DNA from: Maribacter sp. MMG018
GTDB taxonomy: Bacteria; Bacteroidota; Bacteroidia; Flavobacteriales; Flavobacteriaceae
Assembly: GCF_018100785.1 (NCBI RefSeq)
Contig: NZ_JAGJEC010000002.1
Coordinates: 496,001 to 560,000 of the forward strand
DNA length: 64,000 bases
Direction: 5' to 3'
A program made the position numbers and the translations under genes. This document shows positions 3,308-28,167 of this stretch, one piece after another (the stretch's first letter is position 1; each line of letters starts with the position of its first letter). The notes below the pieces were generated by a model, which saw only the letters and a list, made by a program, of their open reading frames with translations, made no database searches and was not told the origin of the DNA.

Positions 3308-5185
3308 ATGAACAAAAAACTTGTAGGTTTTGGTGGCTTGGCATTGCTATGCACCAACGTAATTGCACAGCAAGTAGTGCAAAATGATTCTATTTCGGTC
3401 CAGCAATTGGACGAAGTGGTCGTAAGTGATTCTCGTTTTAAATTAAAAAGGGAAAATTCAGGTAAAACGGTGATTAAAATTTCAGCCGAAGAATTGGAAA
3501 GAAACCAAGGGCGTTCGGTGGCCGAGATTATTAACACTAAAAGTGGATTAGAGGTAAATGGTAGCAGAAGTTATGCGGGACAGAATATTTCTGTGTACGC
3601 AAGAGGCGGAAACAATCGTCAGGTTCTGGTGATCATTGATGGTATACAGGTATCGGACCCTTCTAATGTAAGTGCCGAATATGACCTTCGTTTGTTGAAC
3701 ACTTCACAAATTGAAAGTATAGAGATCATAAAAGGGGCTTCCAGTACCCTTTATGGCAACTCTGCAGCAACGGCTGTCATCAATATAACAACTAAAAAGG
3801 CAAAAGAAGATGGCTTGGCTTTAGATGTGTTGTCAAGTGTTGGCACCAATCAACCAGAGAACGATCAGAATTATAATATTTCCGATTTTTCCAATACGGT
3901 TACTATTACTGCCAAAGAGGGAGGTTTAACTGTCTTGGCCTCTGGTGGGCATCAATATACCGATGGTTTGTCTGCAGCGGTCGGAGAGGAGGCCGACGAT
4001 TTTTCTAGAATAGACGGTACTGTTAAAATAGGGTATCGGTTCTCTAACAAGTTAGATCTAACGGCATCCGCTTTTTACAACAAACTAAATGCGGAGTACG
4101 ATAATGGGTTTCCTATAGAGGATGCAGATTTTTATTATAAAGGAGAGCAGTCTCGATTTGGTCTTGCGGGAACTTACTTTTACAAGAACGGGGAAATACA
4201 TGCAAATACTGCTTTTAACCAGATAAATAGGGAGTTTGTTTCGAATTTTCCTTCGGCGTATGATTCTGAGTCTTTAGTGTTCGATGTATTTAATAAATAT
4301 ACTTTTAATAAGAATCTACACACTGTTCTAGGGGTAAACTATGTTGATGGCAAAACACTGTTCGATGAAGAGAAAAATGCGAATAATTTTGATCCCTATG
4401 CGAATGTTGTCTATGTAAGTGATTTTGGTCTAAACTTGAATATTGGGGCAAGGTTGAACAATCATAGCGAATATGGCAGTAATCTCATTTATAACATTAA
4501 CCCTTCTTACCGTGTTAGGGTCAACGATGGGTATATTAAGGTGATGGGCTCTTACGCAACATCGTACATAGCGCCGAACCTTTCGCAGTTGTATGGCCCG
4601 TATGGTGCCAACCCTGATTTGGAACCCGAAGAAGATACGACCATAGAGGGAGGCTTAGAGGTGAAATTTTCTGATTGGCTAAGGTTGAGTGGAATCTATT
4701 TTAATAGAAGGGAAGAAGGGCGTATCGGTTATGTTACCATTAACCCAGAAACGTTCGAAAGTCAGTACAGAAATATTCTAGAGGATGTTAATTTGTCCGG
4801 TATAGAGATAGAGCTGCAGGCAAAACCCATAAAGAATATGGATGTTTCCGCTAATTACACCTTAACGGAAGCAGAGGAGGATCTGGCTTTGAGAATACCA
4901 AAGAACAAGATCAATGCAACAGTAGGGTATACTTTTGGAAACAAGACCTATGCTTCTGTGATGTACCAAAATGTCTCTAGCCGAACCGATACTGATTTTA
5001 TTACCTATAGTACCGTAGATTTAGAGCCTTTTAGTCTTGTGGACCTTTATTTGAAACATGAGGTTTGCGATCAATTTAGTTTTTTTATATCGGTCAACAA
5101 TATCTTCAACGAAGAGTATGTAGAGATACTTAATTATACTACGAAAGGAAGAAACGTTCGTATAGGAATGAATTTAAAATTATAA
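3308..5185 (+). CDS. btuB: TonB-dependent outer-membrane receptor, BtuB-like
   Basis: Outer-membrane beta-barrel (625 residues) for TonB-driven uptake, very probably of vitamin B12. It has a signal peptide ending near Ala20, a TonB box LDEVVVSD at residues 34-41, and a plug domain containing QVLVIIDGIQVSDP and the segment IESIEIIKGASSTLYG typical of TonB receptors. The C-terminus ends in an aromatic-rich strand and a final Leu-Lys-Leu. The length matches BtuB (about 600) rather than large SusC-type receptors. Regulation by B12 follows from the riboswitch immediately upstream. Its partner importer genes are divergent on the other strand. Confidence 0.93.
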   Translation: MNKKLVGFGGLALLCTNVIAQQVVQNDSISVQQLDEVVVSDSRFKLKRENSGKTVIKISAEELERNQGRSVAEIINTKSGLEVNGSRSYAGQNISVYARGGNNRQVLVIIDGIQVSDPSNVSAEYDLRLLNTSQIESIEIIKGASSTLYGNSAATAVINITTKKAKEDGLALDVLSSVGTNQPENDQNYNISDFSNTVTITAKEGGLTVLASGGHQYTDGLSAAVGEEADDFSRIDGTVKIGYRFSNKLDLTASAFYNKLNAEYDNGFPIEDADFYYKGEQSRFGLAGTYFYKNGEIHANTAFNQINREFVSNFPSAYDSESLVFDVFNKYTFNKNLHTVLGVNYVDGKTLFDEEKNANNFDPYANVVYVSDFGLNLNIGARLNNHSEYGSNLIYNINPSYRVRVNDGYIKVMGSYATSYIAPNLSQLYGPYGANPDLEPEEDTTIEGGLEVKFSDWLRLSGIYFNRREEGRIGYVTINPETFESQYRNILEDVNLSGIEIELQAKPIKNMDVSANYTLTEAEEDLALRIPKNKINATVGYTFGNKTYASVMYQNVSSRTDTDFITYSTVDLEPFSLVDLYLKHEVCDQFSFFISVNNIFNEEYVEILNYTTKGRNVRIGMNLKL

Positions 5186-5191
5186 ACAAGG

Positions 5192-5219
5192 AAAAGGCGG
5201 CTAAAAAGCCGCCTTTTTT
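5192..5219 (+). terminator. Rho-independent terminator of btuB
   Basis: Stem GGCGGC/GCCGCC extended by A/T pairs with a short loop, followed by a run of T, 7 bases after the btuB stop codon. Confidence 0.9.
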
Positions 5220-5238
5220 AATTTTTTTTGATTATTCT

Positions 5239-6699
5239 TTATTCCAAGTTGGTGTTGTAATGTGTGTCGTCAATCATTTTATCCTTGAAAGGACTATACC
5301 TTTTAGAGCTACTAAAAATTTCAATGGGGTTTTGGACCGTGAAGTCCGTTTTTCCGGTAGTTCCCGTTATCTCTTGAATCGCACGGGCCAATAAGGGCTC
5401 GTTCAAATCTCCTAGAATTCCCAAATTATCATAATCTTCCTTAAGTAGAATATCCGGTACCAACCCACTGGTAAAGTCAGAGAAACCATCTGCATTTTCA
5501 TTTCGGCCCAAAAGGGGCTGTATGGCCCATTCGTTGTTCGAATTTATTTGGTTTACCCTACTTGGGGTATATAGGTAAGAGTTTTCCCTATCATCTACCA
5601 AAGTAGTGGAAAACTCATTTTTTCCCCGTGTTACATCACCAATATGTACAATATCCATATAAGGTTCTAAACTATTGATCAAAAGCTCACTGGCCGAAGC
5701 GGAGCTGGCCGTGGTTAGGACATATAGTTTTGATAGTCGTAAAGGGTCGATAGTATTACCTTCAACTTCATTAGTAAAATATACCTCTAACTGGCTTTCC
5801 GAAAGTTGTTCTTGAACCTTGTCATTGTACCTTTTTCTTAAGAACAGATTGCTATTGTCCGTATCATAGATCATACTGGCCAGTAGTCTTGTAGTGTTTA
5901 CGGACCCACCAGGATTATATCGTAGGTCCAACACCAGTTCTGTTATACCTACATCTTTTAAGCCAGCGATGGCATCATATAGATCGTTGTCATATTCATT
6001 GGTAAACTGGTTGTACATTAGGTAACCGATTGTAATACCGTTTATCTCAAATGATTTGGAAATAAATACCGGGTTTTCTGCAAGGGCCTCTTGTTTGGTC
6101 AATGATACTTCCTCGTCATTTTGTACTACATCGCCATTGGCAAAATCGGCCATATTCAACACATAAGTGTCATTATCCCCAAATAGTAGGTCGGCATAGT
6201 TATTGATCGTAAGTGTCTGCCCGTCTACACCGGTAAAAAGGTCTCCTCTTTTAATGTTCTTGGTAGCTGCATCAGAATTCGCTACAATATATCGTACGTA
6301 CCCGAATACTTCATCGCTATTGGCCTTACGCACCAATCCAAATTCTAATCCGTTACTTCTAGAGATACCTGCCAAAGATTGCGTTAATACCCTATAATCG
6401 GAATTGTAGAAACTAAATCTGTCCTCAATATATAGAAGTTTATTGTCGAAAAAGGCTCCGGGGTCATCTTCAGACTCTAAGAATGCGGTATAGGTTTCAG
6501 AATCGGCAAACCTATCGTCTGCCAAATCTGGCATATCCGCTTGCCAGAAATACCAAAAGTTCATTGCTTTCCACATAAAGTCTTGTACGGTTACATCTGC
6601 AGAGGACAATGGATCTATGGTACCTGGAATACTGAGCTCATCGTCTTTGGAACAAGAGATGACGATTACCGTTAAAAATAAAATTAAGAACCTTTTCAT
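5239..6699 (-). CDS. S41 family peptidase lipoprotein (copy 1)
   Basis: Secreted serine protease of the C-terminal-processing (tail-specific) class, 486 residues. The N-terminus has a lipobox (VIVISC, Cys16). A PDZ-like region spans about residues 105-200, followed by the peptidase core with LVLDLRYNPGGS near 256-266. The catalytic Ser-Lys dyad is visible as Ser335 in SASE and Lys360 in RGKN, with the family spacing of 25 residues. It lies 27 bases downstream of a paralogue on the same strand, probably one operon. The substrate is unknown; such lipoproteins occur widely in Bacteroidota. Confidence 0.88.
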   Translation of the reverse strand: MKRFLILFLTVIVISCSKDDELSIPGTIDPLSSADVTVQDFMWKAMNFWYFWQADMPDLADDRFADSETYTAFLESEDDPGAFFDNKLLYIEDRFSFYNSDYRVLTQSLAGISRSNGLEFGLVRKANSDEVFGYVRYIVANSDAATKNIKRGDLFTGVDGQTLTINNYADLLFGDNDTYVLNMADFANGDVVQNDEEVSLTKQEALAENPVFISKSFEINGITIGYLMYNQFTNEYDNDLYDAIAGLKDVGITELVLDLRYNPGGSVNTTRLLASMIYDTDNSNLFLRKRYNDKVQEQLSESQLEVYFTNEVEGNTIDPLRLSKLYVLTTASSASASELLINSLEPYMDIVHIGDVTRGKNEFSTTLVDDRENSYLYTPSRVNQINSNNEWAIQPLLGRNENADGFSDFTSGLVPDILLKEDYDNLGILGDLNEPLLARAIQEITGTTGKTDFTVQNPIEIFSSSKRYSPFKDKMIDDTHYNTNLE

Positions 6700-22838: not shown

Positions 22839-23412
22839 GCTGGGTGTTTAGATAGGAAATAAGCTTCGAGAAAGCTTTTCCCCGATGTCCGATTTGATTC
22901 TTTACCTTCAATGGTAGCTCTGCAAATGTTTTGTCGAATCCTTCGGGTTTGAATATGGGATCGTAACCAAAGCCGTTTTTACCGTTTTTTACCTTGGTGA
23001 TCTCTCCTTTGACAGATCCTTTGAAAAACAATGTGTGATTATCAAGGTTTAATGCTATGACCGTCTTAAAACTTGCAGACCTATCTGCTTTGTCCTTAAG
23101 ATTGGTCAAGAGTTTATCCATATTCGCATTGGCGTCGTTTTCTTCTCCGGCATATCTGGCGGAGTATACACCAGGTGCCCCGTTCAGGGCATCAACAAGA
23201 AGTCCGGTATCATCGGCGAAACAGGGAAGTTGATATGTTTTGTATACATAATCGGCCTTCAGTTTGGCATTGCCCTTTAAGGTGTCTGCAGTTTCGGGGA
23301 TAGGTTCTAAACATCCTAAGTCCGTTAAGGAGACCAGGTTGATAAAAGGGGGAAGCAATTTTTGTATTTCCTTTAATTTGTTTTGGTTGTGCGTGGCGAA
23401 TACAAGTTTCAT
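22825..23412 (-). CDS. rdgB: dITP/XTP pyrophosphatase (RdgB/HAM1 family)
   Basis: House-cleaning enzyme that hydrolyses non-canonical purine triphosphates (ITP, dITP, XTP) to monophosphates. 195 residues, normal length. It starts with the classic LVFATHNQNKLKEIQ, followed by FADDTGLLVDALNGAPGVYSARYAG (about residues 65-88, given here as the family signature region) and FGYDPIFKP with EL.LKVKNQIGHRGKA near the end. Confidence 0.95.
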   Translation of the reverse strand: MKLVFATHNQNKLKEIQKLLPPFINLVSLTDLGCLEPIPETADTLKGNAKLKADYVYKTYQLPCFADDTGLLVDALNGAPGVYSARYAGEENDANANMDKLLTNLKDKADRSASFKTVIALNLDNHTLFFKGSVKGEITKVKNGKNGFGYDPIFKPEGFDKTFAELPLKVKNQIGHRGKAFSKLISYLNTQHVRP

Positions 23413-23454
23413 TTAAATGAATTATTCTTTAGGGGAAAAGGAAGTTATCAGAAT

Positions 23455-23462
23455 CAAAAATA
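23455..23462 (-). promoter_or_regulatory. Candidate -7 element for rdgB
   Basis: TATTTTTG on the minus strand, an exact TAnnTTTG match 43 bases upstream of the rdgB start, in the 63-base gap shared with the divergent methyltransferase gene. Confidence 0.45.
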
Positions 23463-23475
23463 CTAATTTTATAAT

Positions 23476-23928
23476 ATGGAACTAAAACTGCCTCCTATTC
23501 TGGTATTTATCTTTTTTGCTATTATGATGTATTTGGTGGGGAGGTTCTTGCCTTTTGGCTTTTTTGATTTTTTCGGACGCTTTCTTCTGGCCAAAATATT
23601 GAGTGTGTTGGCTGTACTGGTCGCGCTGGCATCACTGGTTCAATTTTATAGGTTAAAAACAACTGTAGATCCTAGAAATCCCCAGAAAACGATCAGATTG
23701 GTAACCACCGGTTTGTACAAATATTCTAGAAATCCCATGTATTTGGCCATGTTACTTTTAATGTTGGCTTTTGGTTTACAGATCGGAAATGCGTTTAATA
23801 CATTGGTAGCGGCCGGGTTTGTTTCGTATATGAACCGGTTTCAGATAATTCCGGAAGAGAAAATTTTACATCAGAAATTTGGAAAGGATTATAAAATATA
23901 CCTTTCTCAAACAAGAAGGTGGTTCTAG
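23476..23928 (+). CDS. Isoprenylcysteine methyltransferase-like integral membrane protein
   Basis: 150 residues with about four transmembrane segments and the ICMT/PEMT C-terminal signature: GLYKYSRNPMYLAMLL at about 76-93 (RNPMY is the family hallmark) and a final EEKILHQKFGKDYKIYLSQTRRW region. These enzymes methylate small hydrophobic or lipid-linked acceptors with S-adenosylmethionine; bacterial substrates are mostly unknown. It lies divergent from rdgB and 100 bases upstream of the SatD gene. Confidence 0.85.
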   Translation: MELKLPPILVFIFFAIMMYLVGRFLPFGFFDFFGRFLLAKILSVLAVLVALASLVQFYRLKTTVDPRNPQKTIRLVTTGLYKYSRNPMYLAMLLLMLAFGLQIGNAFNTLVAAGFVSYMNRFQIIPEEKILHQKFGKDYKIYLSQTRRWF

Positions 23929-23948
23929 ACAGGTAAATACCTTTTTTG

Positions 23949-23969
23949 TATTAGTTTTTGGGCTAATAA
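23949..23969 (+). repeat. Operator-like repeat, copy 1 (upstream of the SatD gene)
   Basis: TATTAGTTTTT-GGGC-TAATAA. The ends form an inverted repeat (TATTA...TAATA). A second copy with the same geometry starts exactly 56 bases further on. It sits 20 bases after the preceding stop codon and 58 bases before the SatD start. Confidence 0.5.
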
Positions 23970-24004
23970 TGTCAAATATTACTTAATTAACTTATTTATG
24001 AGTA

Positions 24005-24025
24005 TATTAGTTTTTTAATTAATAA
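24005..24025 (+). repeat. Operator-like repeat, copy 2 (overlapping the SatD leader)
   Basis: TATTAGTTTTT-TAAT-TAATAA, matching copy 1 at 11 contiguous bases, then 4 variable bases, then 6 more identical bases. It ends 2 bases before the SatD ATG at 24028. Bound protein here would block translation start or transcript elongation. Confidence 0.5.
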
Positions 24026-24027
24026 CT

Positions 24028-24633
24028 ATGATAGCAATAATAACAGGTGATATTGTCAATTCTCAAGAGCACCCTTCATCTGAATGGATGGGTGTTTTAA
24101 AAGAATATTTTTCGCGTTTTGGGCCGTCTCCGATGAACTGGGAGATATATAGGGGAGATGAGTTTCAGCTAAAGGTGACACAAGACAATGCTTTGTTTGT
24201 GGCCATTCAAATAAAGGCTATTTTAAAATCTATCAAGGGATTGGATGTGCGTATGGGAATTGGAATTGGTCTTGAGACCTATATTGGCTCGGGGGTTAGT
24301 GAATCCAATGGTCCGGCCTATCAAAGATCTGGTCGTAAATTGGAGTCTTTAAAAGATAGTAGGGTGAATCTTAGTATAGCTACAGGAAACGAATTCTATG
24401 ATCGGACATTGAATCTTATGTTGCGGCTTGCGCTCGACTTTATGGACGATTGGAGTGTGGTATCTGCAGAAATAATAGCATTGGTGTTGGATGAGCCCAA
24501 TGCTTCCCAAAAAGAGATAGCAAAAAAACTGGGCATTAAGCAATCTGCGGTTAGCCAAAGGTTAAAGAGGGCTCGTTTAAACTTGGTTTTGGATCTATTG
24601 GACTATTATGAAAATCAAATCAAAGAAATATAA
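24028..24633 (+). CDS. SatD family protein: cyclase-like domain plus helix-turn-helix
   Basis: 201 residues. The family is known only by name (SatD, from acid-tolerance work in streptococci). Residues 1-125 carry a series that parallels class III nucleotidyl cyclases: ITGDIVNS with Asp8 (compare the FxDIVGST metal site), YRGDEFQL with Asp44 (second metal Asp), VRMGIGIG at 74-81 (compare VRIGIHTG), and GPAYQRSGRKLESL at 95-108 (compare GDAVNxAARLExL), where Gln99 and Arg103 keep the 4-residue spacing of the transition-state Asn and Arg. Residues 157-185 form a helix-turn-helix (SQKEIAKKLGIKQSAVSQRLK). Catalysis is not proven: Asn is replaced by Gln and the Asp spacing is 36, not about 44. DUF3307 follows after 3 bases. 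Confidence 0.85.
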   Translation: MIAIITGDIVNSQEHPSSEWMGVLKEYFSRFGPSPMNWEIYRGDEFQLKVTQDNALFVAIQIKAILKSIKGLDVRMGIGIGLETYIGSGVSESNGPAYQRSGRKLESLKDSRVNLSIATGNEFYDRTLNLMLRLALDFMDDWSVVSAEIIALVLDEPNASQKEIAKKLGIKQSAVSQRLKRARLNLVLDLLDYYENQIKEI

Positions 24634-24636
24634 TAG

Positions 24637-25338
24637 ATGCAAATATTCATAAAGCTATTGTTAGCCCATTTAATAGGTGATTTTATGTTGCAGCCCAGTA
24701 AATGGGTGATACATAAAGAAGCCAACAAGGCAAGGTCCAAGTACCTTTATTTTCATGTTTTAGTGCATTTTGCCCTGTATATGTTGGTTCTATGGAATAT
24801 AAACGATTGGAAAATAGCCGTTGTAATTACTATAAGCCATTTGTTCATAGATATGGGCAAGCTGTATGCGGCTTCATTTTTTAAGAACCAAAGTGTTCCT
24901 TTTTTCTTAGATCAAGTACTCCACATTCTAGTTCTTTATATCTGTTGTTTTTACGACAATCTGTATGGGCATACCATAACGCTTTTCGATAATTTGGATT
25001 GGGGCCTAGTATTGGCGGTCGTTTTTGTTACCTTTCCTTCTGCAATTATAATGGCGAAGCTTTTGGAGGGAATGTCCGATCAGATCAGTACCGACCATAA
25101 ATCATTGCCGAACGCGGGTAAGTACATAGGGATCATAGAGCGGTTGTTCGTGTTGATATTTATCATAATGGGAAGGTGGGATGCCATCGGTTTTTTAATC
25201 ACCGCCAAATCTGTTTTTAGGTTCAACGACCTAAAAGAAAGCAATAGTAGAAAGCTTACGGAATATATTTTGATCGGTACCTTGGTAAGCTTTGGTTTGG
25301 CCATTATGGCCGGTATTCTCTATACTAGTTTTAATTAA
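24637..25338 (+). CDS. DUF3307 integral membrane protein with intramembrane His/Asp pairs
   Basis: 233 residues with about six hydrophobic segments. Four helices each hold a polar pair spaced four residues apart: His11/Asp15, His40/His44, His68/Asp72 and Asp92/His96, together with Gln19, Lys75 and Gln93. Such a pattern suggests a metal centre buried in the membrane, somewhat like YdjM-type membrane hydrolases; no function is established for the family. It starts 3 bases after the SatD stop, so the two are surely one operon, and a conserved functional pair is likely. Confidence 0.8.
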   Translation: MQIFIKLLLAHLIGDFMLQPSKWVIHKEANKARSKYLYFHVLVHFALYMLVLWNINDWKIAVVITISHLFIDMGKLYAASFFKNQSVPFFLDQVLHILVLYICCFYDNLYGHTITLFDNLDWGLVLAVVFVTFPSAIIMAKLLEGMSDQISTDHKSLPNAGKYIGIIERLFVLIFIIMGRWDAIGFLITAKSVFRFNDLKESNSRKLTEYILIGTLVSFGLAIMAGILYTSFN

Positions 25339-25347
25339 TTCAACGAT

Positions 25348-26127
25348 ATGAACAGGTTTGCGGTATTTTTGATAACATGTGGGATTGTACTTAACGTTGC
25401 TGCCCAAACCGAACATTTCACTTCTTTTGACGGTGTTGATATAGCGTACACGGATCAGGGGCTTGGTAGTCCTATATTACTTGTTCATGGGTTTTTAAAC
25501 TCTGGGCGGTCGTGGCAAAACACCCAAATAGAAAAAGATTTACTGGAAAAGGGGTATCGGGTGATCGTTCCCGATTTACGGGGAACGGGAATGTCAGACA
25601 AGCCACAAGACGATATATATTATCAAAACGATGCGGAGGTCAAAGACCTTCAGCTTTTAATGTCACATTTAAAGATAGTTCGGTACGATGCCATCGGATA
25701 TTCTAGGGGAAGTATCGTTTTGGCCAAGCTTTTAACAAAAGACGAACGAATAAAGAAAGCCGTGCTTGGGGGTATGGGCATAGATTTTACCGATCCTGAA
25801 TGGGATCGGCGTTTAATGTTCGCCGAGGCGTTCAATGGCAATATAACGGAGACGACACAAGGTGCGGTTGCCTATGCCAAGTCTATAAATGCCGATTTTC
25901 GTTCCCTTCACTTACAACAGAAATACCAACCGGTAACTTCGATAAAAGATCTTGCCCAAGTAAAGGCCAAGGTTTTGGTAGTAGTTGGTGACAAGGATAT
26001 GGACAATGGGGATCCAGTGGCATTGAGCAAGGTTTTTAAAAGAGGAAGACAGGTTACGGTACCCGGAGATCATAACGGAGCATGGAAAACAAAAGAGTTT
26101 TCAAAGAAGGTTCTTCGATTTTTGTAA
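25348..26127 (+). CDS. Alpha/beta hydrolase, exported
   Basis: 259 residues with a signal peptide ending near NVAAQ (residue 20). The fold is clear: the oxyanion strand LLVHGFLNSG near 44-53, DLRGTGMSDKP near 77-87, the nucleophile elbow GYSRGS (Ser119 region), the acid in VVGDKDMDNG, and the catalytic His in PGDHNGAW near the C-terminus. It begins 9 bases after the DUF3307 gene, so it probably belongs to the same transcript. The substrate is unknown; an esterase or lipase acting in the periplasm is the simplest reading. Confidence 0.85.
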   Translation: MNRFAVFLITCGIVLNVAAQTEHFTSFDGVDIAYTDQGLGSPILLVHGFLNSGRSWQNTQIEKDLLEKGYRVIVPDLRGTGMSDKPQDDIYYQNDAEVKDLQLLMSHLKIVRYDAIGYSRGSIVLAKLLTKDERIKKAVLGGMGIDFTDPEWDRRLMFAEAFNGNITETTQGAVAYAKSINADFRSLHLQQKYQPVTSIKDLAQVKAKVLVVVGDKDMDNGDPVALSKVFKRGRQVTVPGDHNGAWKTKEFSKKVLRFL

Positions 26128-26274
26128 GTTATTTTCCTCTTTGTATGGCTACGTTGATTAGAATTTTCATCAAACTAAGATCTTTTTGTTTTATTTCATA
26201 TTATGAGTAAGATCAAACAAATATAATTTTTACTTTTACGCCTTGGTTTTCAAAAACAGAAATCCCAAGTAAAT

Positions 26275-28167
26275 ATGGTTACAACAGGCAGAAAGTATGT
26301 GTTTGATTTTGACAGTACGTTAACAAGGGTAGAGGCCTTGGATGTATTGGCCGAAATGACATTGGAAGGTAAATCCAATAAGGAAGAAATCATTAATGAG
26401 ATCCAAAATATAACCAATCTTGGTATCGATGGTGATATTTCCTTTACAGAGTCGTTAGAGCGAAGAATTAAGTTGTTAAATGCCCACAAAGACCATTTAG
26501 ATGGTTTGGTGAACGAGCTTAGGCACAAAATATCAAAATCGATTGCCTCGAACAAAGAGTTTTTTGAAAAGTATTCAGATGATATTTATGTAATATCATG
26601 TGGATTTAAAGAGTTTATAGATCCTATTGTAGAAGAGTACAATATACCGTCCGAAAGGGTGTATGCAAATACATTCAAGTTTGACAGTGACGGAAACATT
26701 ATCGGTTTTGATGAGCATAATGTATTATCTCATCATAACGGAAAAATAGAATGCCTAAAACAAATGAACTTGGACGGAGAAGTTCAGGTCATTGGTGATG
26801 GCTATAGTGATTATGTAATGAGGGAAGCGGGCATTGCGGATAAGTTTTTTGCATATACAGAAAATGTACATAGAGATAAAGCCACCGACAAAGCTGACCA
26901 TATTGCGCCTAACCTAGATGAATTTTTATTTGTGAACGATTTGCCAAGAAATATATCCTACCCAAAGAACAGAATTAAGATCCTTTTATTGGAGAATGTG
27001 CATCCGGCAGCTTTTGAGAACCTTTCTAAAGATGGTTTCTCTGTAGAGTTGGTAAAACATAGTCTTCCGGAAGAGGAATTGATAGAGAAGATCAAAAACG
27101 TCCATGTTTTGGGTATCCGTTCTAAGACACAGGTTAATCAAAAAGTACTGGATGCGGCAGAGAAATTATTGGTCGTAGGTGCGTTTTGTATCGGAACTAC
27201 GCAAATAGACCTTGACTATGCCAAGAAAAAGGGAGTTGTTGTTTTCAATGCTCCTTATAGCAACACAAGATCGGTCGTAGAGTTGGCCATAGGCGAAATT
27301 ATCATGCTAATGCGTAGCGTTTTCGCCAGGAGTTCAGAAATACATAACGGACAGTGGCAGAAAACAGCTGCAGGTTCCCGTGAGGTCCGTGGTAAGAATT
27401 TAGGTATTGTAGGTTACGGTAATATAGGTAAGCAATTGTCGGTATTGGCGGAAGCCATGGGTATGAAAGTGTACTACTATGACGTAAACGACCAACTGGC
27501 TATCGGTAATGCGGTAAGGTGCGGTACATTAGAGGATCTATTGAACGTTTCCGATGTGGTTACACTTCATGTAGACGATAACAAGGCCAACAGGAACTTT
27601 ATTGGGGCCAGAGAAATAAACCAAATGAAGAAAGGGGCTATGTTGATCAATCTTTCTAGAGGTTTTGTGGTCGATATTGATGCTTTGGCAGAAGGTTTGG
27701 AAAGTGGTAAAATTGGTGGGGCGGCAGTAGATGTATACCCCGAAGAACCAAGAAGTAACGGTGAATTTAAAACAAGGCTGCAAGGTTTTCCAAATGTTAT
27801 TTTAACCCCGCATGTGGGTGGTAGTACCGAAGAAGCTCAAAGAGATATTGCCGATTTTGTGCCCAATAAAATAATGGATTATATTAACTCTGGTAATACG
27901 GTAGATGCGGTAAACTTTCCTAATATCAGGTTGCCGAAACAGAATAAGGTTCATAGATTTTTGCACATACACAAAAATGTACCTGGCATCATGGCCAAAA
28001 TAAATGAGGTGTTGGCCAAATATGAGCTTAACATATCAAGTCAATATCTTTCTACCGATAATGAAGTAGGGTACGTAATTACCGATTTGGACAAAGAATA
28101 CAACAAAGATGTTATCAAAGCCCTTAAAAAGGTAGAGAACACCATTAAATTTAGGGTGCTGTACTAG
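26275..28167 (+). CDS. serA: Phosphoserine phosphatase / D-3-phosphoglycerate dehydrogenase fusion
   Basis: 630-residue bifunctional protein for serine synthesis. Residues 1-215 are a HAD phosphatase of the SerB type: nucleophile Asp11 and Asp13 (DFDSTLT), Ser108-Gly110 (ISCGF), Lys157 (NGKIE) and GDGYSD at 174-179. Residues about 233-545 are a 2-hydroxyacid dehydrogenase: RSKT at 282-285, GYGNIG at 380-385, and catalytic Arg462, Glu491 and His513. An ACT domain (about 560-630) should give serine feedback control. The two enzymes catalyse steps 3 and 1 of the pathway. The aminotransferase SerC is not in the window. It ends 2 bases from convergent rlmH. Confidence 0.93.
   Translation: MVTTGRKYVFDFDSTLTRVEALDVLAEMTLEGKSNKEEIINEIQNITNLGIDGDISFTESLERRIKLLNAHKDHLDGLVNELRHKISKSIASNKEFFEKYSDDIYVISCGFKEFIDPIVEEYNIPSERVYANTFKFDSDGNIIGFDEHNVLSHHNGKIECLKQMNLDGEVQVIGDGYSDYVMREAGIADKFFAYTENVHRDKATDKADHIAPNLDEFLFVNDLPRNISYPKNRIKILLLENVHPAAFENLSKDGFSVELVKHSLPEEELIEKIKNVHVLGIRSKTQVNQKVLDAAEKLLVVGAFCIGTTQIDLDYAKKKGVVVFNAPYSNTRSVVELAIGEIIMLMRSVFARSSEIHNGQWQKTAAGSREVRGKNLGIVGYGNIGKQLSVLAEAMGMKVYYYDVNDQLAIGNAVRCGTLEDLLNVSDVVTLHVDDNKANRNFIGAREINQMKKGAMLINLSRGFVVDIDALAEGLESGKIGGAAVDVYPEEPRSNGEFKTRLQGFPNVILTPHVGGSTEEAQRDIADFVPNKIMDYINSGNTVDAVNFPNIRLPKQNKVHRFLHIHKNVPGIMAKINEVLAKYELNISSQYLSTDNEVGYVITDLDKEYNKDVIKALKKVENTIKFRVLY

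Follow-up and report, generated by a model that had tools for sequence, protein, structure and literature searches.

SatD of Maribacter sp. MMG018, a predicted palm and helix-turn-helix protein with a putative operator array and a nearly constant partner gene

SatD appears in the literature as an acid-tolerance gene (PMC11323703, PMC10326533, PMC10210942), and the accessible parts of these publications name an acid-tolerance operon and describe no mechanism. According to the part of one report that is available, satD is essential in the tested strains of Streptococcus pyogenes and present in 178 of 249 genomes (PMC11323703). A literature search combining SatD with cyclase returned, among the matches listed, only unrelated chemistry and natural-product work, subscription journals being mostly outside its scope. 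The gene considered here lies in a stretch of 64,000 nucleotides from Maribacter sp. MMG018 (contig NZ_JAGJEC010000002.1, positions 496,001 to 560,000), called the window below. The original prediction, made from these letters, described a SatD-family protein resembling a class III nucleotidyl cyclase joined to a helix-turn-helix (HTH). The locus therefore raises the question of whether SatD is a nucleotide-responsive regulator and, if so, what it would regulate.

Domains and conserved residues of SatD

On the evidence of its sequence, the open reading frame (ORF) at 24028..24633 (plus strand, 201 amino acids) is a genuine SatD-family protein, with a palm (residues ~1-120) followed by a C-terminal helical/HTH region. 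It scores 49.7 bits against the Pfam family SatD PF16264, whose curated cut-off is 29, with residues 37-187 matched. Its closest relative with an organism name among the matches listed is the Maribacter thermophilus homologue (96%), and a PDB sequence search gave no close match (best E 0.35). The HTH that had been proposed was recovered at residues ~145-186 (24460..24585, plus strand) and is like sigma-70 region 4. The Pfam families HTH_24 (E 1.7e-7) and Sigma70_r4 (E 1.9e-7) match at ~147-186, and the sigma -35-binding domain 3hug forms one Foldseek row for the SatD model. Pfam and AlphaFold2 together place a DNA-binding HTH and a palm, the putative sensor, in a single chain.

The nucleotidyl-cyclase-like palm (24028..24387, plus strand) was modelled confidently by AlphaFold2 (pLDDT 92.3), with strands at residues 2-9, 38-41, 45-51, 74-81, and 115-118 and helices at 21-31, 55-67, and 96-108. 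The cyclase-like fold first read from the motifs is supported by this predicted structure, whose top matches in Foldseek and VIA-align include class III cyclases, Cas10, GGDEF, and GTP cyclohydrolase III. The Anabaena uridylate cyclase 8jsz stands at Foldseek row 38, and no Foldseek match of the SatD model reached E <= 0.001. Profiles were compared with class III cyclases and, as the sole other family, GGDEF. Three SatD palm profiles scored 28.7-31.1 when aligned with 30 class III cyclases of the same phylum and 21.0-26.1 with 27 GGDEF sequences, the hhalign probabilities being 28-46% and 5-20%, respectively. Twenty column shuffles of one of the three SatD profiles reached at most 19.3 against class III and 17.1 against GGDEF, and the class III and GGDEF profiles scored 26.2 against each other.

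Class III cyclases (PF00211) have a palm fold, a DIV-x-S/T loop with a metal aspartate, a Gly-Asp hairpin, and an RxGIxxG strand, all of which SatD shares, the fold by prediction, and SatD scores higher against their profile than against that of GGDEF. Bacterial class III motifs such as DIVGST and GDxxM are close to the commonest readings of the window-type SatD subfamily (six sequences), GDIVNST and RGD[ESG][FW]Q. SatD differs from these enzymes in its shorter Asp-Asp spacing, in its attached HTH, and in that the Asn-x3-Arg dyad is not conserved. In addition, a PF00211 search of the genome to which the window belongs gives two hits at E <= 0.001, and satD is not among them. PF00990 (GGDEF) has no match in that genome, and the HTH together with the lower GGDEF profile score sets SatD apart from the palms of GGDEF, mCpol, and Cas10. 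The proposed kinship with class III cyclases stands for the predicted palm fold and the two putative metal aspartates, and fails for the dyad and the PF00211 match.

The motif positions given in the original prediction, namely Asp8 and Asp44 with a spacing of 36, VRMGIGIG at 74-81, and GPAYQRSGRKLESL at 95-108, were all confirmed in the translation. Asp8 (codon 24049..24051, plus strand) lies in strand 1 and Asp44 (codon 24157..24159, plus strand) in the beta2-beta3 hairpin (RGDEF); both are predicted metal ligands. Among 204 distinct relatives, Asp8 (201), Ser12 (203), Asp44 (203), and Gly95 (201) are near-invariant, and E (131) and S (62) account for most of position 45. The invariance expected of Asp8, Asp44, and Arg103 extends to the two aspartates and not to position 103, which is Arg in 58 of the 204. 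Gln occupies position 99 in 29 of 169 relatives; the others have for the most part His, Tyr, Thr, Val, or Ile there. Since neither position is conserved, we reject Gln99/Arg103 as a catalytic dyad and as the counterpart of the Asn/Arg pair; the Asn-x3-Arg transition-state dyad of class III was not found as a feature of the SatD family.

A basic residue of the SatD family occurs at position 42 or 102 (L42-R102 in 101/169, R42-G102 in 64/169, both basic in none, neither in one). This exchange is suggestive and no more, because the tree needs just three changes; a sign test is unable to reach significance, and the exchange was not accepted as proof.

Exceptions to the aspartates are rare. One relative (L076) has a gap at position 8, in another (L313) this position is misaligned or altered, and in L223 both aspartates are replaced. 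The last, a Flavobacteriaceae SatD at 4891-5520 of its locus with D8E, S12P, and GD changed to EN, is the sole relative in which Asp8, Ser12, and Asp44 are all replaced. Its 10-kb locus contains no match to the partner gene described below and no operator array (11/20). It is a single anecdote, yet it goes in the expected direction. A separate hairpin variant, FRHDSWQ in place of RGDEFQ, occurs in 11 SatD (L298-L301, L308-L311, L314, L319, L320), with Asp44 kept and Gly43 changed to His; none of these has a 28/29-bp array, and the gap to the partner is 1 to ~150 bases.

The partner gene and the distribution of the pair

Three base pairs after satD, a second gene begins (24637..25338, plus strand), which the original prediction had missed. 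It encodes a 233-aa DUF3307 protein (PF11750, E 1.7e-26), multi-helix and probably membrane-located according to alignments and its model. PF11750, which a single paper in the literature searched mentions, spans residues 3-103 of the protein, and the rest has no Pfam match. The C-terminal module (residues ~158-233; 25108..25335, plus strand) is common to all partner types compared. The 18 partners compared come in three sizes (the 233-aa DUF3307 type, ~240-250 aa, and 104-115 aa), and the module is present in every one, with G165, E168, R169, K191, L212, G214, and S218 invariant. When 49 long partners were aligned, the same picture emerged. The partner model is all-helical, with nine helices of at least four residues (pLDDT 79 overall, 84-97 over most of the module), and its comparison with PDB structures yielded nothing significant (best E 1.0).

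By eye, the DUF3307 partner carries in its N-terminal region (24637-24930) the repeated His/Asp pairs H11/D15, H40/H44, H68/D72, and D92/H96, which resemble a membrane metal site. Similar motifs are present in the Halorientalis partner, and the shorter partners in the 18-sequence alignment are without this region. One in-frame TAA lies inside the partner matches of five genomes of one family (G012, G210, G265, G277, G281), and a stop is present in those of G239, G127, and G201 too. In Fusobacterium (L268 3500-5030), a longer SatD with the divergent hairpin AGDEIQ is followed by a DUF3307-type partner.

The gene pair is nearly obligate. With adjacency defined as -120 to +400 bases, a module gene lies 3' of satD on the same strand in 157 of 169 distinct loci, overlapping it by 4 bp in 79; four of the 12 loci lacking one have fewer than 700 bases of downstream sequence left. 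Of 296 genomes from the window's phylum, 66 are hit by PF16264 (60 over the cut-off) and 104 by the partner profile. By these profiles, 63 of the 66 PF16264 genomes also have the module, and 41 genomes have the module alone. Loci were taken from 38 of these 41 and joined by second partner places in two other genomes, giving 40, and a purpose-built profile detected a SatD-type ORF beside the partner, on the same strand, in 35. Three of the remaining five are near contig ends, one is a weak partner call (11 bits), and L302 is a true orphan. In the three of the 41 genomes outside this set (G021, G118, G226), a protein search located a window-type satD, with the partner adjacent in L214, L244, and L243. 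The SatD-type ORFs beside module-alone partners thus indicate both that PF16264 misses many window-type SatD and that the pairing is nearly constant.

A SatD relative was found in 111 of 199 Flavobacteriaceae genomes, with one match each except for one that is split in two pieces, and the window's gene neighbourhood is retained around the pair in 7 of 40 fetched Flavobacteriaceae loci. Plasmid records with relatives numbered six when searched with the window protein and nine and seven with two other SatD. In ten plasmid regions examined, a module-bearing partner follows satD by profile in L032-L036 (5/5) and by eye in L266-L270 (5/5, two of them haloarchaeal; the partner is annotated short in L270 and divergent in L267). 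No SatD relative was present in the viral contigs searched, and the phage records searched with relative L005 gave no match. A PADLOC scan of 18 partners and 76 SatD returned no strong match; those of the window SatD were weak (best E 0.0022) and lay wholly or for the most part in the HTH.

Two side observations were made. On a Sphingomonas insulae plasmid (L034 944-8434), the satD-DUF3307 pair adjoins genes whose annotations read TIR protein, ImmA/IrrE, Pycsar effector, E2-associated protein, and cyclase, and this satD has no 28/29-bp array (8/20). In the PADLOC scan, one of the 18 partners matched PDC-M18B (E 0.0011).

Tandem dyads upstream of satD

A 20-bp imperfect dyad of approximate form TATTAGC-N6-GCTTATA recurs 5' of satD with a pitch of ~28 bp, both in the window and in seven genomes syntenic with it, an array that had also escaped the original prediction. 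The window has three putative operator copies on the plus strand, TATTAGTTTTTGGGCTAATA at 23949..23968, TATTACTTAATTAACTTATT at 23977..23996, and TATTAGTTTTTTAATTAATA at 24005..24024, recognized by repeat comparison and, for the first, by a family-wide test. They lie at -79, -51, and -23 from the satD start, and the array spans 23949-24024, its third copy ending 3 bp before the start codon. Three steps of 28 bp amount to ~8 turns of DNA.

Within the 64-kb window, the dyads score 20.4, 19.8, and 15.3 and the best site outside the satD promoter 11.1, a scoring that is partly circular because the motif was trained partly on these same sites. A motif-free test looked for any 20 bases repeated at a set distance in the 150 bases 5' of an ORF (threshold 14/20). 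Repeats at 28 or 29 bp were found before 143 of 169 satD. As controls served the upstreams of the other ORFs of these loci, taken mechanically rather than as curated promoters, and 6 of 788 had such repeats. Tandem dyads at this pitch occur in 140/169 against 2/788, and a stricter dyad score gave 72 at 28 bp, 56 at 29 bp, and at most one at each of nine other distances. When dinucleotide shuffles served as the background, 28 or 29 bp stood out as the leading distance in all five locus groups (z 9.9 to 19.9). After clustering at 40% identity, the array was kept in 16 of 22 satD clusters. Among 73 genome-contig loci, at least one array occurs in 12 of 14 named phyla, the two exceptions being single loci, and two haloarchaeal satD (L266, L267) and two alphaproteobacterial ones (L269, L270) reach 15-17/20 at 28 or 29 bp.

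The array is common, not universal. The dyad threshold is missed by 29 of 169 satD, and among 35 divergent satD found through their partner, judged by the simpler repeat test and not the dyad test, 19 reach 14/20 at 28/29 bp and 16 miss it, including all 11 FRHDSWQ types. The promoter box TAnnTTTG accompanies 26 of 56 Flavobacteriaceae arrays versus 56 of 209 control upstreams and is absent from the window's satD promoter. An Rfam scan of 23400-26300 gave no match. A tandem operator architecture of constant pitch and drifting sequence is unusual, and it can be predicted beside most satD.

Dyad types follow clades by eye: AACC-GGTT goes mostly with YKN recognition helices, TTTCA-TGAAA with the IWKRR type, and TATTAGC with the SQRxKRA type. 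Half-site similarity correlates with recognition-helix similarity once palm similarity is allowed for (partial r 0.252, reached by 0 of 300 permutations, n=140), in an analysis to which the automatic setting of the dyad axis, placed between copies in some Maribacter-clade loci, added noise. Palm similarity itself retains a partial r of 0.197 with the half-sites, and the helix-operator correlation in these sequences is partly phylogenetic.

Genome-wide searches allowing at most two mismatches gave two sites for the operator of G029 (2.6 Mb), both directly in front of satD, and two for that of G484 (3.4 Mb), whose spacing equals that of the copies at satD in L094. For the window's genome, a degenerate pattern of the operator with up to three mismatches had fewer hits than the reversed pattern used as control (76+78 vs 140+111); at no more than one mismatch, it recovered two satD sites out of three and one further site. 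This near-perfect single dyad, which matches as well as the satD sites do, lies between two ORFs elsewhere in that genome (L247 1501-1520; G000:C10:234271-234290). It was rejected as a second array, no further copy being seen at 28 bp.

A proposed circuit and its alternatives

The interpretation in the original prediction is partly supported: its reading frame, motifs, palm, and HTH hold, its Gln99/Arg103 pair does not, and it lacked both the partner gene and the array. The best reading, which we consider probable, is that SatD is an autoregulating palm-HTH protein, likely binding a metal-nucleotide, and dedicated to one membrane partner. HTH dimers would occupy two to four tandem ~20-bp dyads, at a 28- or 29-bp pitch, just 5' of their own two-gene operon. 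SatD bound there would most likely repress that operon, an outcome favoured rather than proven by the placement of the window's last dyad next to the start codon. The palm most likely binds a metal-nucleotide at Asp8/Asp44 as its input, given that both metal aspartates and the Asp-Ile-x-x-Ser loop are kept, and turnover is possible. The fixed pitch suggests contacts between neighbouring dimers, plausibly via the palms, and the ligand state may govern these contacts and, through them, how dimers assemble on the array. The output would be the amount, perhaps the activity, of the membrane partner, whose C-terminal module may be contacted by SatD or its nucleotide. Of this reading, the predicted palm, the conserved aspartates, the near-constant pair, and the array with its co-variation with the HTH come out of the computations; SatD binding to DNA, repression, nucleotide binding, and partner control are inferred. 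Against it stand the missing Asn of the dyad, the moved Arg, an hhalign probability for class III that stays low, and Foldseek matches that all fall short of E <= 0.001. The satD without an array, in the main and the divergent set, and the pattern counts in the window's genome likewise speak against it.

The missing Asn and the moved Arg also lend weight to a possible but clearly less probable account, in which SatD is an ordinary HTH autoregulator whose degenerate, catalytically dead palm serves binding or dimerization and senses NTP or metal, the partner being a housekeeping membrane enzyme or transporter. The variability of position 45 would fit such a protein, as would an operator confined to satD in the two genomes G029 and G484. 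However, the metal aspartates are more nearly invariant than a dead fold seems to need, and L223, which lost both, is also without partner and array.

It is unlikely, though a precedent exists, that the pair is inhibitory, with SatD, or a cyclic nucleotide that it makes, keeping a harmful membrane effector off until loss of SatD or of the nucleotide releases it. In Panoptes (mCpol/OptS with a 2TMbeta effector), a palm enzyme holds a membrane effector in check, as far as the available parts of the reports describe it (PMC12657230, PMC12657218). By analogy with that description, both systems have two genes, for a small palm protein (predicted here) and a membrane protein (predicted multi-helix here); they differ in the HTH and operator array, which belong to SatD. 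The effector is 2TMbeta there, and the partner here has an all-helical model with no significant PDB match. The near-constant pair, its spread over many phyla and carriage on plasmids, the defence-type annotations around L034, and the simultaneous absence of aspartates, Ser12, partner, and array in L223 would all suit such a pair. So would the S. pyogenes gene in the part of the report available (PMC11323703), since an antitoxin-like gene is expected to be essential though accessory. On the other hand, the retained neighbourhood and the occurrence in 111 of 199 family genomes make satD look more like a resident gene, and the viral, phage, PADLOC, and PDB searches offered this idea no support.

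Other known arrangements are only partly similar. In Pycsar, a class III-like cyclase fold lies beside a membrane protein gene, as the predicted cyclase-like fold of SatD does; however, no Pycsar family was among the best 25 of 30 families matched in the PADLOC scan of 76 SatD, and we know of no cyclic-pyrimidine activity for SatD. Mycobacterial cyclase-LuxR fusions, e.g., Rv0386, likewise join a cyclase domain and an HTH in one chain, but the HTH is of another kind, and to our knowledge they have no tandem array or membrane partner.

That another regulator binds the dyads while the SatD HTH acts elsewhere is very improbable: one operator-like site away from satD in the window's genome would allow it, but the array sequence co-varies with the SatD recognition helix, and the arrays at satD across 12 of 14 sampled phyla and in haloarchaea mean that any other factor must travel with satD.

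A bolder extension of the favoured autoregulatory reading, to which we assign little probability, is that SatD is a nucleotide enzyme or switch forming a helical nucleoprotein filament on phased operators, the same nucleotide state restraining a membrane effector through the C-terminal module in a guard circuit of bacteria and archaea. If true, it would unite synthesis, sensing, and gene control in one 200-residue protein. New for SatD are the fold prediction, a metal site and a DNA target that are both probable, and a partner dedicated to it, all of which can be tested directly. Should the palm produce or require a nucleotide, the family would represent a widespread, uncharted nucleotide-signalling circuit, which would in turn offer an explanation for the reported essentiality of satD in strains that carry it.
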